A DNA stretch of 42,356 nucleotides, from positions 1-42,356 of the forward strand of contig JASJDS010000041.1 of assembly GCA_030065055.1 (NCBI GenBank), read 5' to 3'. Numbering within the stretch: the stretch's first letter is position 1; each line of letters opens with the position of its first letter. A program made the translations under genes and the position numbers. The notes under the pieces were generated by a model. The model did no database searches. It was not told where the DNA came from and saw only the letters and a program-made list of their open reading frames with translations. Positions 175-9,766 of this stretch are shown one piece after another. Source of the stretch: Calothrix sp. MO_192.B10. Its GTDB lineage: Bacteria > Cyanobacteriota > Cyanobacteriia > Cyanobacteriales > Nostocaceae.

Positions 175-254
175 TGTGAACCGTCTAATCGGGTGGATTT
201 ATCCCCCGATTAGACATCCCTAGAATCCCCGTCAATTTATTGCGGGGAGTGTCA
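1..254 (+). mobile_element. Right part of an IS200/IS605-type element
   Basis: The element comprises the TnpB tail plus two downstream stem-loops. The first is a perfect 11-bp stem, 183-193 with 205-215 (arm GTCTAATCGGG). The second pairs CCCCG at 227-231 with CGGGG at 243-247 and is followed by AGTGTCAA at 248-255. The second hairpin with its flanks (GAATCCCC, loop, GGGGAG then GTCAA) has a close counterpart at 24645-24680 on the minus strand, which supports reading it as an element end. The exact boundary at about 254 is inferred. Confidence 0.6.
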
Positions 255-726
255 ATCAACTGATGCCATCTGATGCCATGTCCAGAACTACGTAGGGGCA
301 CGGCATCTACTGACTTTTTCCCATACCAGAATCTGAATCTCGCCGTGCCCAACGGCATCCACTTTTTCCCATACCAGAATCTGAATCTCGCCGTGCCCAA
401 CGGCATCCACTTTTTCCCATACCAGAATCTGAATCTCGCCGTGCCCAACGGTATCCACTTTGTCTCATTCCAGAATCTGAATCTCGCCGTGCCCAACGGC
501 ATCCACTTTGTCTCATTCCAGAATCTGAATCTCGCCGTGCCCAACGGCATCCACTTTTTCCCATACCAGAATCTGAATCTCGCCGTGCCCACAACCCATT
601 GGTTTCCCCAAATGTAATCCCGTCCCTCTCACTGTGTTCAAATATTCATGGTGAGGGCACGGCGTATTGGGTGAGCGAAAAAGACTGTGGTCATCCAATT
701 TTGGATTTTGGATTTTGGATTGACAT
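175..726. other. Intergenic region: IS right end, tandem array, short repeats
   Basis: Beyond the IS end and the 48-bp array, this stretch holds a further GGGCACGGC motif at 656-664 and a TTTTGGA heptamer repeat at about 701-721. Neither open frame over the array looks like a real gene. Confidence 0.7.
303..590. repeat. 48-bp tandem repeat array, six copies
   Basis: A unit of exactly 48 bp is repeated six times (6 x 48 = 288). Units 1-3 and 6 carry TTTTTCCCATACCAG, while units 4 and 5 carry TTTGTCTCATTCCAG. The rest of the unit is almost invariant, including CTGAATCTCGCCGTGCCC. The 48-bp period is a multiple of three, so several frames stay open and encode a 16-residue repeat. I see no ribosome site or coding bias and treat the array as non-coding. 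It is bracketed by GGGCACGGCAT at 297-307 and by GCCGTGCCC at 582-590, the same arms as the dispersed element at 4364, 15704 and 42278. Confidence 0.9.
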
Positions 727-4788: not shown

Positions 4789-6144
4789 TTATGTGGTCAA
4801 AATTTTCTGTTCTAAAAGACCCTGAAGTGCTTCAATAACTCGGTAGGCAGATATTTGCCGATCGCTTTGGGCAAGAAATTGAGCAACTACATGACTAGCG
4901 TTTTTTGAGGGATTACACAATTGGCATAGCAGTTGTAAATCCTTGGGAGGTAAGTACATGTTCAGTCGTCTTAAAGCACTGGGGATTTGAGGAAATTCTG
5001 GGAAAAAGATGGGTTGTGCAGGGGATAAGCTTACCCTGCCTCTTCTTAATCGCCAAAAAGGCGATTTATTCCAGCGTTTTTCTTGGTCATAGTATTTGAT
5101 CCGGTCTTGCAAATAAACTTCAAACTGATGCCGAGTTTCCAACTCGTATGTAGTCAGAGCATTGCCATTACCGGCAAAATAAAGAGCGATCGCTTCACCT
5201 GCTTTTATGCCAGATTGTAAAGCCTTGTAAATACCCGCAGAAGCAAGTGGATCTAAGGTACAGGCTGCATCCCCCACAGCTAGCCAGCCATCACCTGTCA
5301 TTTGGTCTAAATATTGGGAGGTGGCGGGTTGAATCAACAGCCTGGATTGCTTAGTAGCATCATGGGTTAACTTCTGAATATGCTGGGTTTGTTGCAAATA
5401 GGTAGTCCAGTTTTTGGCTTGCAATAACCCATATTTTTGCAGCAAATTGCTATCACTCATAAAAGTAGCGATCGCTTGCCCATGAGGTAGTCGAGCAGCA
5501 TACCACCACCCCAATTCTGTGGTCTCTACTAAGGTATAGTAATCCTCAGGAGCATTCTTGTCCCAAGTAAATACGGAAGCCACAGCAATGAGACTGTCCA
5601 TACGGACTTTATTTGCCCCTTGCCAGGTAGCAAATAAACTGCGATTACCAGTAGCATCAACTACAAAGGAGGTTTTAAGATGGAACTGAGAACCATCTTT
5701 AGCTCTCAGTTTAAGCCTCCATTGACCATCAGCAAGTTGATTGCCTCCCAAGGCAGTTGTCTCCCACATTACCATGACACCCCGTTTCTGGGCTGCCCTA
5801 GTCAGGGAAGCATCAAACTGTGAGCGATTCAGATGCCAACCTTGTCCCCCTGGATAGAAAAAGAAGTCTTGGAAGCCCAATTGACTCCCACCCCAGGCAG
5901 AGCAATTTCCCCAAGAGCGAAGATGTTCATCTTCGGTCAAAACATCATACACCCCCAATTGCTCTAAAACAGGCGGAACACTGGGGGGAAGAGTTTCACC
6001 AATTCGGAAGTTATCCTGGCGGGTTTTTTCTAGGATGGCAACGCGCTTTTCTCCTTGATTTTTCAGAGCAAGTGCTGTTGCCACCCCTGCAGGACCACCA
6101 CCGATAATTACTACATCAATTTCCGGTGGTAGGTTGTTATTCAT
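4789..6144 (-). CDS. LodB-like FAD-dependent oxidoreductase (maturase of the adjacent quinoprotein)
   Basis: The 451-residue flavoprotein has the dinucleotide-binding motif VVIIGGGPAG (residues 11-20), an RIGETLPP segment typical of the halogenase/LodB-type branch, and the second FAD motif VGDAACTLDPLASAGIYKAL. I see no WxWxIP halogenase signature. Its start overlaps the 3' end of the LodA-like gene by 8 nt, so the two are translationally coupled. In Marinomonas mediterranea, LodB is required to form the cysteine tryptophylquinone (CTQ) of LodA. The same role is inferred here from family and position. The reaction on the precursor (probably hydroxylation of the cofactor Trp) is known only for the family. 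It is the last gene of a three-gene operon, ending near the hairpin at 4738-4768. Confidence 0.82.
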   Translation of the reverse strand: MNNNLPPEIDVVIIGGGPAGVATALALKNQGEKRVAILEKTRQDNFRIGETLPPSVPPVLEQLGVYDVLTEDEHLRSWGNCSAWGGSQLGFQDFFFYPGGQGWHLNRSQFDASLTRAAQKRGVMVMWETTALGGNQLADGQWRLKLRAKDGSQFHLKTSFVVDATGNRSLFATWQGANKVRMDSLIAVASVFTWDKNAPEDYYTLVETTELGWWYAARLPHGQAIATFMSDSNLLQKYGLLQAKNWTTYLQQTQHIQKLTHDATKQSRLLIQPATSQYLDQMTGDGWLAVGDAACTLDPLASAGIYKALQSGIKAGEAIALYFAGNGNALTTYELETRHQFEVYLQDRIKYYDQEKRWNKSPFWRLRRGRVSLSPAQPIFFPEFPQIPSALRRLNMYLPPKDLQLLCQLCNPSKNASHVVAQFLAQSDRQISAYRVIEALQGLLEQKILTT

Positions 6145-7957
6145 CGCGGGGCAAGGTTCTGTCTACTTCAGCGTAATAAGATCCTTCCCAACCCTTTTGG
6201 GCTAAAGCTGGCTTATATTCGTCAAATTCTGAGATATCAATAATGAATCCCAGTTTATCCCACTTCTCAACCATATCTACATCATCAGGAAACATAATGT
6301 AATTGGGAGCTGTCTGATCGTAATCAATGCCAATCCAAGGAACTTGTTCGTCTTTAATCCTTTCATCAGGAACTGCTGCCCTTAACATTTCTGGTTGTGG
6401 GGGTGGCAAATAGACAAATTCCGGTCGTTGGGCTGGCCACCACCAAACATAACGACCTTGGAGGGGTTGGCTGGAACATTCATTAAAGTCTGCTTGCCAA
6501 GGTAAAGCCATGTATTTGGAGAGATCCCCTGGTTCTAGACCTTCTTCCAAGTTCATTTCTAAACTGAGTTGAGCATTTGGCTCTAAGGGTTTATGCTTGA
6601 CGCGGAATGGTTCGGTATATATCTCGGGATTGCGGCAAATCCAAGTGATTTCAATCCCCGGAGAAAAAGCACCACCTACACAGTTTTCTAAAGTAGCACG
6701 GGTTAGTTGGTCTCCAGGTTGTTCCGGTTCAGCAGAAGCACCGTTGGTAAAGTTACCATTTGCCCACTGCTGTAACAGAAAATATTGAGTCTGGGTCAAA
6801 GTCAGAAATTGAGCTGATTTCTGGCTACTACCCGTGGCATCATCCCCCGCTAAATAGGGCATCATGGGATAGCCTGTTGTGGAAGATTTTAAGTCATTTT
6901 GCTGATTTGGTGGTCGGATTTGGGTAAAAACGTATTGCCGCAGACCATTGTATTCAGGGTCGGTATTGCCCAAAAGGTCAAAGTTAAAGGTGTGAGCTTT
7001 CGGAGGTATGGCAGTAACCCAAGGAAATGCAGAACCACGCTCCAAGATTGGTTGAATTTCCTGCTGGAAGTCTGGTTGATAATTCTGGTTCCAAAAACTA
7101 TTTTCATAGATATCTGGACGGTATCCCATTTGCCGCACCGCCACATCAAATATGGTGTCGTAAAGGGAGACCAGATTGAGAACCTGCGGGGCATAAGCTG
7201 GAGGTGCTACTATCACCCAAGCAGGCTCTGCTTCCTCAGGTGTACCCCCCAAAGTCACTTGTGCTGTAACTGAACCATCGGAGATGTCATCCCACCAGTT
7301 ATCGTTATTGGCATACTCAGTAATTACAGGATTAGACTCTTTGGAACCAGAATGACCAAATCCCCCAACTACAATCAACCGCCCCTGTTCATCTGTATAT
7401 ATTTCCCCTAGGGTGTCGATATCATTGCCAGGAGGTGTTAAGCTCGCAGGGGGGAATGTAGGAGTATATCCATTTACAGGAGTTCGGTCAAAAGATGCAG
7501 ATTGCACGGGATTCTCTGTGGTAGCTGTTACAGTTCTGCTACCCGGATCAATAATCAGCTGATATCTTTCGGTAGGATCAGTAATACTACTGTTGCGTAA
7601 AGGATGGTTAGAAGCATAGCCCTCTTCCCCATTGCAAGTTTGAAACTGATACCAGCTAGCTTTTTTATTGGCTAAACGAACAGTCCATTGAATTGCTGTG
7701 ACCTGACTGCCGCCAATACTCGCTCCTAGGGTAACTTCTTGCTGGTTACCCGAGTTGTCGTAATAAATACGAAACCTGGCTCCTTGGCGACGTAGCTTTT
7801 GATCACCAGCTCGGAAATCAGTAGGTTGAAACTCGGTCTGATCCAACTTAATGGGAAGTCCCCCAGCCTCTTCTGGAGCTAAATAATACTCAGTACTATT
7901 ACCAACACGGGAAATGCCTATGGAAGGATAAATTTTAAAAGTGTAAGTCTCTGTCAT
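6137..7957 (-). CDS. LodA/GoxA-like CTQ-dependent amino-acid oxidase
   Basis: The 606-residue protein begins with KIYPSIGISRVGNS, a hallmark of the LodA/GoxA family (L-lysine epsilon-oxidase, glycine oxidase). The C-terminal half holds the two conserved cofactor segments. C426 lies in ENCVGGAFSPGIE and W487 in MALPWQADFNEC; they are 61 residues apart, close to the 65 between Cys516 and Trp581 of LodA. These would form cysteine tryptophylquinone after maturation by the LodB-like product encoded downstream. Known members deaminate free amino acids and release H2O2 and ammonia, which can be antibacterial. The substrate cannot be read from the sequence. No signal peptide is evident. The gene lies downstream of the ferritin-like gene (53 bp from its stop) and overlaps the flavoprotein gene by 8 nt. 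Confidence 0.85.
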   Translation of the reverse strand: MTETYTFKIYPSIGISRVGNSTEYYLAPEEAGGLPIKLDQTEFQPTDFRAGDQKLRRQGARFRIYYDNSGNQQEVTLGASIGGSQVTAIQWTVRLANKKASWYQFQTCNGEEGYASNHPLRNSSITDPTERYQLIIDPGSRTVTATTENPVQSASFDRTPVNGYTPTFPPASLTPPGNDIDTLGEIYTDEQGRLIVVGGFGHSGSKESNPVITEYANNDNWWDDISDGSVTAQVTLGGTPEEAEPAWVIVAPPAYAPQVLNLVSLYDTIFDVAVRQMGYRPDIYENSFWNQNYQPDFQQEIQPILERGSAFPWVTAIPPKAHTFNFDLLGNTDPEYNGLRQYVFTQIRPPNQQNDLKSSTTGYPMMPYLAGDDATGSSQKSAQFLTLTQTQYFLLQQWANGNFTNGASAEPEQPGDQLTRATLENCVGGAFSPGIEITWICRNPEIYTEPFRVKHKPLEPNAQLSLEMNLEEGLEPGDLSKYMALPWQADFNECSSQPLQGRYVWWWPAQRPEFVYLPPPQPEMLRAAVPDERIKDEQVPWIGIDYDQTAPNYIMFPDDVDMVEKWDKLGFIIDISEFDEYKPALAQKGWEGSYYAEVDRTLPRDE

Positions 7958-8010
7958 GAAATCTACCTGATTTTGATTGTGTCAACTGTATTTTTCCTGT
8001 ACTCAAGGGG

Positions 8011-9252
8011 TTATAAAAGCGTCCTCAGGTTGCGGTCTGCTGTTTGTCCGCTGATGTCTTCCAGGGTTTGATAAACTGTGTTCACATTCGCGGCGAGGGA
8101 TTGTAACGTAGGATCTGCGGTAGCCGCAGCTTGTAAATCGTTGTTCAATTGTTGAGCTTGGGTAACTAACTGTTCCAAAGAAGTATCCACATATTGAAAA
8201 CAAGGTCCTGCATTGGGACCAACATTTGGATCGCTATCTGCTAATACGGGAAGTTGCATTAACTGGGTGGCTAATACAGGAAAGACGCTCTGCATCAGAG
8301 GCACAATCACTGTAAAGTAGGGGTCTGGTTCTGTTTGGGTACCAAAGAGTGCTTGTAAGGTTTTAACTAAGAGTCCGTAACAGCCGTCGAACAGATCTGC
8401 CAGTTCTCTCGTCCAAGGACTGGTAAACTTGTCTGGAGAGGGATTTGGCAGCATGGGATAGGTATCGCCAATGGGAATAGTCCCATCTGCTAAGTCTTTG
8501 AATTTAAAGTAGTGAGATAAGTCAAAGGGAGTTCCCAGAATCGGGCCATAGGTATCATCACTACGCTTTCCGTAGTAGTTATAGGCTCCCCATTGTTGTT
8601 TTTGATATAACCTCTGATCTGGTGGTAGGGCGCCTTCTCCCTGTTGCATGATTTCATTAATTGCCTGTTTCGCAGTCTCTAGGCTATTGACATAGATAGC
8701 TTTTCCCCCACCACTGCCAAAATATAAGTCCGTTCGCTGCAATCCAGTATCATTATCGAAAATATTCGGATCTTCTGCTACACACTGCTCAAACAACAGT
8801 TCAATGGCTTTATAGAATTGCCCAATTGTCATCGGATCTTCCAACTGTGGAGGTGCATCAGAGGGTGCAGGCTGTTCAATTGCCATAAAAATATCCTGCA
8901 ACACTTCTGGAGATGCAGCCATTAGTTGCACATATGGACCACTTGGGGGATTTATATTAAAGATATAGGTGGGATAGTCAGGAACTAAGCCAATAAATTG
9001 GGGAGAACCCCCAATCGAATTCATTAAATTGCTCGCCAAGTTCAGGTGGAGCATTTCTTCCAATATGACGCTCCTGAGGGTCTGAAAAGCTTGAGAAGTT
9101 TTATCTTGAATTGAATACAGAGCTGTCAGGTAAGGGGGAATGGTAGAAAACTCTAGAAGGGCAGCTTTTTGAAGTGCTTCTATGAGTTTTCCCCGATTAT
9201 CAGTGCTGCTAAATTTGAGCTTAATTCGTGCTTGGCTTCTAGTAAGAGTCAT
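8011..9252 (-). CDS. Ferritin-like (VioB N-terminal / iminophenyl-pyruvate dimer synthase type) protein
   Basis: The N-terminal half shows a ferritin-like four-helix pattern with LLEFSTIPPYLTALYSI and VILEEMLHLNLASNLMNSIGG; the Glu and E-x2-H residues are the expected metal ligands. This matches the domain found in VioB/RebD-type enzymes that handle amino-acid-derived imines. The C-terminal part (about residue 240 on) is family-poor, with a predicted helical end. The frame can begin at a TTG at 9288, but AAGGAG at 9260-9265 sits 7 nt before ATG 9252, so 413 residues from there is preferred. As first gene of the operon with LodA- and LodB-like genes, it may protect against or use the peroxide or imine made by the oxidase. 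That role is inference. Confidence 0.78.
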   Translation of the reverse strand: MTLTRSQARIKLKFSSTDNRGKLIEALQKAALLEFSTIPPYLTALYSIQDKTSQAFQTLRSVILEEMLHLNLASNLMNSIGGSPQFIGLVPDYPTYIFNINPPSGPYVQLMAASPEVLQDIFMAIEQPAPSDAPPQLEDPMTIGQFYKAIELLFEQCVAEDPNIFDNDTGLQRTDLYFGSGGGKAIYVNSLETAKQAINEIMQQGEGALPPDQRLYQKQQWGAYNYYGKRSDDTYGPILGTPFDLSHYFKFKDLADGTIPIGDTYPMLPNPSPDKFTSPWTRELADLFDGCYGLLVKTLQALFGTQTEPDPYFTVIVPLMQSVFPVLATQLMQLPVLADSDPNVGPNAGPCFQYVDTSLEQLVTQAQQLNNDLQAAATADPTLQSLAANVNTVYQTLEDISGQTADRNLRTLL

Positions 9253-9265: not shown

Positions 9266-9766
9266 GGCATTGATGACATTGATGACAAAATCTCTAGGAA
9301 ATATTACCTTTCGGTAATATTTGTTTCGCGATCGCCAAATTTTGCTATGGGTAATTTTGAGCGATCGCCATCGCCTGAAAGCCTTGTCTGGCAAGAGCTA
9401 ATCATCATCAAATTACTGTTCATGCACCAGATTACAACCTAGTGAATTCACTGCCATAACTGTGTAATATTTATTTTTTTTATGATAATTTTGTTTACTT
9501 GATAATATTTTTGAAAATAACTTTGAAAAAATAATATTTTGCGTTTTCAACTGTTTGATATGATACTAAGTTGCATTCAAAGATAGTACCCAGTCATTGC
9601 GACGTAAGGAAGCAATCTCATTGACTCGAAGGCGTTGCTGAATTGAAGTATGAAATTGAAAAATGGAATAATTAAAACTCTTATTCTCTGCGCCTTTGCG
9701 CTTGGAGTGACTAACTCTTCAAGGGCGCACGCAATGCGCCCCTACAAACTTCGCGCTGATTAACCA

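Follow-up and report, generated by a model that had tools for sequence, protein, structure and literature searches.

A ferritin-like protein gene is linked to a LodA/GoxA-family oxidase gene and a LodB-like flavoprotein gene in a Calothrix operon

A three-gene operon in Calothrix sp. MO_192.B10 encodes a ferritin-like protein (Pfam accession PF12902), an oxidase of the LodA/GoxA family and a LodB-like flavoprotein. The ferritin-like protein is the usual partner of the oxidase in this LodA clade, and the pairing of the two is well supported. Judging from sequence motifs and from analogy to characterized systems, there is roughly an even chance that the operon is an oxidation module with its maturase, in which a cysteine tryptophylquinone (CTQ) amine oxidase would be matured by the LodB-like protein and the ferritin-like partner would act on the imine and/or peroxide produced.

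The operon lies in the window, by which we mean the whole stretch of DNA analyzed (42,356 nucleotides of contig JASJDS010000041.1), from a source genome of 7.76 Mb in 330 contigs (Table 1). A first-pass annotation had described three co-directional genes, with a gap of 53 nt between the ferritin-like and LodA-like genes and an overlap of 8 nt between the LodA-like and LodB-like genes, and the ORF coordinates agree with it; its reading of the set as an operon is supported, and its family names are upheld by Pfam and NCBIfam matches. The ferritin-like ORF is listed with a TTG start at 9288 and has an in-frame ATG at 9252 with AGGAG a few bases 5' of it. Elsewhere in the window (185-617), a short peptide unit (GTARFRFW...) is repeated in overlapping ORFs on both strands, which marks a tandem DNA repeat.

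Table 1. Operon genes and split LodA-like loci; the ends of the three minus-strand operon ORFs (8011, 6137 and 4789) are those of the ORF list.
Feature	Location	Strand	Basis
Ferritin-like protein gene (PF12902), 413 aa, first in operon	8011..9252	-	Pfam
LodA/GoxA-like quinoprotein oxidase gene, 606 aa	6137..7957	-	LodA_N + LodA_C
LodB/GoxB-like flavoprotein gene, 451 aa, probable CTQ maturase	4789..6144	-	NCBIfam, PDB matches
Split LodA-like protein, radical SAM gene between halves (G382)	L015:7490-13716		
Split LodA-like protein, radical SAM gene between halves (G167)	L170:817-5759		

The LodA signature that had been read in the 606-aa oxidase is confirmed by Pfam, with matches to LodA_N at 1.6e-66 (224.8 bits against a cut-off of 26.3) and to LodA_C at 3.2e-47 (160.4 bits against 25), and these domains place the protein in the LodA/GoxA family. 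Its best NCBIfam match is LodA, at 402 bits against a cut-off of 600, and it scores 261 against 750 for GoxA. The oxidase is thus a family member that falls below the equivalog cut-offs for LodA (lysine 6-oxidase) and GoxA (glycine oxidase). Its predicted fold (pLDDT 81.2) best matches the LodA structure 3weu (E 3.6e-41).

The published CTQ residues of LodA are C516 and W581 (PMC4417212). Alignment to 3weu, with positions counted by hand, pairs C516 (in WQADFFNC) with window C494 (in WQADFNEC) and W581 (in YWWPPQ) with window W507 (in VWWWPAQ), 13 residues from C494. The segment bearing W507 scores only about -0.8 bits alone in this alignment and has no significance of its own; we base the W507/W581 pairing on the WWP motif, which does not vary in either of two alignments, one of eight LodA rows and one of 25 closer relatives. 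C494, W506 and W507 are invariant in the eight-row alignment and, together with D490, in the 25-row one. D490 corresponds to LodA D512, near the probable CTQ residues, and C494, W507 and D490 are identical in rows with and without a ferritin-like partner (25-row alignment). By this sequence correspondence, C494 and W507 are probably the residues of a putative CTQ. The first-pass annotation had assigned the cofactor to C426 and W487, a pair ruled out by the same alignment, which puts the two LodA cofactor residues at C494 and W507 and pairs C426 with LodA C442 and W487 with LodA W509. C426 is alanine in two of the eight LodA rows and nearly invariant in the 25-row set.

The third protein matches Trp_halogenase/FAD_binding_3 in Pfam and LodB best in NCBIfam, at 309 bits against an equivalog cut-off of 400, which makes it LodB-like and not LodB proper; GoxB (242) and QhpG (187) also score below cut-off, and PDB matches include QhpG (7ctq). 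Its gene lies directly downstream of the LodA-like gene and overlaps it by 8 nt, which together with LodB as the top match sustains the earlier proposal that it is the probable maturase. LodB and GoxB are required for CTQ and act on hydroxylated tryptophan (PMC7876137). LodB-like genes on RefSeq plasmids are named tryptophan 7-halogenase (L016:7862-9037 and other plasmid records), a name that is probably misleading.

The first protein matches PF12902 at 4.8e-43 (148 bits against a gathering score of 22.3) over residues 27-227 of 413. Diiron ferritin-like enzymes usually bind their metal through four Glu and two His. We aligned 26 ferritin-LodA rows, the window protein included, with 17 rows from other contexts (three rows were left out) and found a diiron-type set of putative ligands, E34, E66, H69, E126, E206 and H247 (413-aa numbering), conserved in 26 of 26 ferritin-LodA rows and kept in 17 of 17 others, E206 being present in 16 with one gap. 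These conserved Glu and His residues make a catalytic role for the ferritin-like partner plausible. The AlphaFold model is helical (pLDDT 83.7), and the sole significant solved relative is Caulobacter CC_0557 (3hl1; 2.3e-11 by sequence, 1.1e-7 by Foldseek), which is about 20% identical to the window protein and titled just 'ferritin like protein'. 3hl1 is also the template reported for VioB (PMC9705886). The kinship with VioB claimed for this domain holds, in that PF12902 is part of the VioB-like protein encoded at a Chromobacterium vaccinii locus (L035).

When genome contigs were scanned with the eight-row LodA alignment, 539 relatives emerged among at least 584 candidates, and the best 80 of the 539 were kept; ferritin-like genes at these loci were called with profiles made from the retrieved sequences. 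At 25 of the best 80 loci, and at 20 of the top 21 by rank (L024-L044, 47-53% identity), the ORF directly upstream of LodA on the same strand encodes a ferritin-like protein. The sole miss among the 21, L031, belongs to a MAG in which PF12902 was not found. The other five positive loci are L072, L075, L079, L096 and L101; the count includes L033 and L079, where the LodA ORF start is over-extended, and L072, where both genes are fragments. The partial loci L072 (76% identity, fragments) and L046 (64%, contig beginning inside LodA) are closer in sequence to the window LodA. The expectation that the ferritin-like gene travels with LodA and LodB is borne out by these counts, though it is absent from the LodA loci of three rather close cyanobacterial relatives (L045, L047, L048). 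Altogether 55 of the best 80 loci, close cyanobacterial relatives included, have no upstream PF12902 gene, and most LodA loci examined have LodB without it. At L072:6394-8230 (Richelia UBA3308), the ferritin-like gene and the LodA gene (LodA 76% identical) are both present only as fragments, near a stretch of N at 8269-8379, a picture of decay or misassembly.

Carriers of the arrangement fall in six phyla: Pseudomonadota, Actinomycetota, Acidobacteriota, Bacteroidota, Planctomycetota and Cyanobacteriota. The ferritin-like gene is present in three of eight plasmid LodA neighborhoods (L016, L017, L022); an annotated Azospirillum brasilense plasmid has the same gene order, its third gene named tryptophan 7-halogenase, and an annotated Hymenobacter plasmid has the ferritin-like gene upstream of LodA with one small gene between. 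In a tree built from 86 of the 95 sources (three without usable LodA, four partial or broken and two near-copies were left out), 27 of 86 rows bear the ferritin-like label, with 5 label changes against a shuffled mean of 23; long branches make the grouping of L010 and L022 unsure. Pairwise distances correlate at 0.97 for ferritin-like/LodA, 0.87 for LodA/LodB and 0.85 for ferritin-like/LodB across 21 chosen loci (0.94, 0.88 and 0.89 across 18 main-clade loci), and none of 2000 permutations reached these values. Because shared ancestry is still in the distances, these correlations speak for co-inheritance and not for interaction. No match was found in the viral contigs searched. A fourth gene recurs near the ferritin-LodA-LodB set at 9 of 29 loci (L027, L029, L034, L035, L039, L040, L043, L079, L101), one of five scanned weakly matching the heme-binding barrel PF08768; it is absent beside the window operon.

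LodA_C occurs in 4 of 386 cyanobacterial genomes, the source genome included. The only other LodA_C match of the source genome lies on a second contig (C20), in a single ORF of 967 aa (L010:455-3358) that carries PF12902 at 57-284, LodA_N at 482-692 and LodA_C at 793-910 and overlaps a LodB-like gene. Each LodA_C match of this genome is thus partnered by PF12902, encoded upstream in one case and fused in the other, and since the arrangement also recurs in other phyla, the ferritin-like/LodA linkage is beyond chance. We searched with the C20 protein for further N-terminal ferritin-LodA fusions and saw none in 990 genomes (296 + 296 + 398) around members of three other phyla, in a search that scored at most two candidates per genome, left out four open frames of 1067-1086 aa and could miss rare fusions. 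Four long LodA proteins that were examined contain no PF12902 (L205 by custom profile only).

Two cyanobacterial genomes (G382/G167) show a split form, in which three genes encode, in order, a 557/603-aa protein, a radical SAM protein and a 597/598-aa PF12902 protein. The 557/603-aa proteins resemble the LodA N-terminal half by eye only and have no Pfam match, and the 597/598-aa proteins contain PWQHDFRDCACFYW, with PF12902 C-terminal to it; of the latter, one has a weak LodA_C match (8e-5, below cut-off), and none is reported for the other. A LodB-like flavoprotein gene is divergent from the set at L015. The split protein and radical SAM gene possibly represent a radical-SAM-linked tryptophylquinone enzyme.

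PF12902 also keeps other company. Plasmid records with a match number 166, and in 12 further neighborhoods hand-chosen among the matches listed (60), the gene immediately upstream encodes a GMC oxidoreductase in eight and a hypothetical protein of 587-675 aa in four. A profile of the latter matches the L035 VioB-like protein just before PF12902, at 27.7 bits (E-value for a single target). The 386 cyanobacterial genomes hold 29 PF12902 matches, and the 22 examined have as partners LodA (2), a split LodA-like protein (2), GMC oxidoreductases (8, counting L161, where other ORFs lie between), VioB-N-like proteins (2) and, in one case, a flavin amine oxidase beside a VioB-like protein; the other seven have no recognized oxidase neighbor, most being checked by five custom profiles only. 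We also considered whether a DyP peroxidase regularly belongs to the cyanobacterial GMC/ferritin-like cassettes and rejected the idea: L161 has one partial domain, and the L157 gene at about the same place encodes a TIM barrel. The source genome itself pairs a second oxidase class with PF12902, two GMC oxidoreductase genes preceding a ferritin-like gene on contig C116 (L012:5983-10873).

Several individual loci add to this variety. Among the genomes searched around a Bacteroidota member, one (G853) encodes a 1080-aa chain with PF12902, flavin amine oxidase and Rieske domains (L204:2577-5819). In a cyanobacterial genome (G300), genes for a flavin amine oxidase, a 1154-aa PF12902 protein with a VioB-like layout and an aromatic-ring hydroxylase are adjacent (L166:2630-9417), a set that looks like an indolocarbazole/violacein-type cluster. 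A 696-aa PF12902 protein gene adjoins an MbnB/TglH/ChrH-family (PF05114) gene at L168:2149-5202 (G382), and at L096 a flavin amine oxidase gene lies just upstream of the three-gene set. In Chromobacterium vaccinii (L035), about 0.7 kb separates the end of the ferritin-LodA-LodB set from three convergent genes, which we take to be vioD, vioC and vioB, the domain search having identified PF12902 alone.

From the families, cofactor motifs, ligand set, linkage and fusions, we infer a cofactor, a metal site, a complex, a substrate and a reaction. The LodB-like flavoprotein would help form the tryptophylquinone (C494-W507) in the LodA-like protein, which would then oxidize the primary amine of a substrate, probably an amino acid, to an imine or aldehyde and H2O2. 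The PF12902 protein, with a dinuclear metal site, would act on these products (imine and/or peroxide), much as VioB and RebD follow the flavin oxidases VioA and RebO. This step is modeled on the role of LodB/GoxB, on VioB, which has catalase activity and couples the imine that VioA produces (PMC9705886), and on RebD-type heme enzymes, which couple imines (PMC10851217). A quinoprotein counterpart of VioA/VioB is, by this analogy, the best explanation of the operon. The window protein bears no sign of heme and no VioB-type N-terminal part, which counts against the VioB analogy, as the 55 of the best 80 LodA loci lacking upstream PF12902 and the seven of 22 cyanobacterial PF12902 genes lacking a recognized oxidase neighbor count against the explanation as a whole. 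The fusion, the linkage and the conserved ligands support a working ferritin-like/LodA pair.

Such a pair could also serve to guard against peroxide, the ferritin-like protein removing H2O2 near the oxidase and so protecting it or the cell, with no further product. LodA-family enzymes do make H2O2, other LodA-like proteins bear N-terminal catalase-like or iron-enzyme domains (PMC4417212) and VioB has catalase activity (PMC9705886); yet many LodA loci do without a ferritin-like gene, and VioB and RebD, which contain or resemble PF12902, are coupling enzymes (PMC9705886, PMC10851217), so that we regard a pure guard as unlikely. Less probable again is a part in cofactor maturation ahead of LodB, by carrying out or aiding the first tryptophan hydroxylation or by delivering metal. 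That hydroxylation is thought to be autocatalytic in LodA/GoxA and copper-dependent in LodA (PMC7876137), which makes an assisting metalloprotein conceivable, and the ferritin-like gene does sit with a maturase gene, as PF12902 and a radical SAM gene accompany the split LodA-like protein in two genomes. Most LodA loci examined, however, have LodB and no upstream PF12902, the presence or absence of the partner makes no difference to C494, W507 and D490, and PF12902 also accompanies GMC and flavin amine oxidases, which lack tryptophylquinone. This last point argues against a purely CTQ-specific role and is why we rank maturation below action on the oxidase products. A scaffold or chaperone of the oxidase would fit the fusion and tight linkage too, as well as the bare 'ferritin like protein' title of 3hl1, the only solved relative, but all six putative ligands persist whether the context is LodA, GMC or VioB, and a non-catalytic partner seems very improbable.

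Action on the oxidase products extends to a broader proposal, which we offer tentatively and consider somewhat improbable as a whole: PF12902 may be a general oxidase-coupled diiron catalyst, and the operon and its one-chain C20 twin a quinoprotein-diiron pair that would pass CTQ-made imine and/or H2O2 straight to the diiron site for oxidative coupling or oxygenation. This pair, occurring in at least six bacterial phyla, would be a flavin-free VioA/VioB counterpart that makes new products. The pairing offers one hypothesis for why PF12902 accompanies LodA, GMC and flavin amine oxidases alike. LodA-type CTQ oxidases are known for making peroxide and for an operon of two genes, and a conserved ferritin-like partner, once fused in-chain, suggests that a whole LodA clade uses its product otherwise. 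The operon is also a small setting for testing the PF12902 domain of VioB, and the form split by a radical SAM gene in two cyanobacteria bears on the making of tryptophylquinones.

The closest characterized systems are the lod operon of Marinomonas mediterranea (LodA/LodB) and the gox operon (GoxA/GoxB), which likewise encode a LodA_N/LodA_C oxidase and then a LodB-type flavoprotein. They share the cofactor motifs of the window proteins, and LodA is the best fold match of the window oxidase; the window proteins differ in falling below the LodA, GoxA, LodB and GoxB cut-offs and in the presence of a ferritin-like gene, which the lod and gox operons as described do not have (PMC4417212). VioA/VioB, RebO/RebD and StaO/StaD resemble the window in combining an amine oxidase with a PF12902-type protein (PMC9705886, PMC10851217). 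Their oxidases are flavoproteins, whereas the window oxidase is predicted to be of the quinoprotein type. VioB and RebD are also described as long and heme-containing (PMC9705886, PMC10851217), and they have an additional N-terminal part that is missing from the window protein, in which PF12902 lies at 27-227, as against 530-762 in the L035 VioB-like protein. An extra redox domain is likewise present in the chain of LodA-like proteins that have an N-terminal pfam14518 or catalase-like domain (PMC4417212), and the PF12902 of the C20 protein is a different family from these.

The first-pass annotation had suggested that the three-part set could be undescribed, which overstates the case, as a PF12902-type gene close to lodA/lodB was reported in 2015 for the five fungal cases of group V (PMC4417212). 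These fungal loci hold the same three families close together, but by description lodB is in opposite orientation with the ferritin-like gene close by or between (PMC4417212), unlike the single co-directional ferritin-like > LodA > LodB operon of the window. The Results of that study make no mention of a bacterial PF12902 gene by lodA/lodB (PMC4417212), and we recognized no other report of the ferritin-like/LodA pairing in the open-licence PMC literature, supplements aside. The families are thus known; what looks new within that literature is the conservation of the operon in bacteria, the fusion into one chain and the pattern of a partner shared among oxidases.
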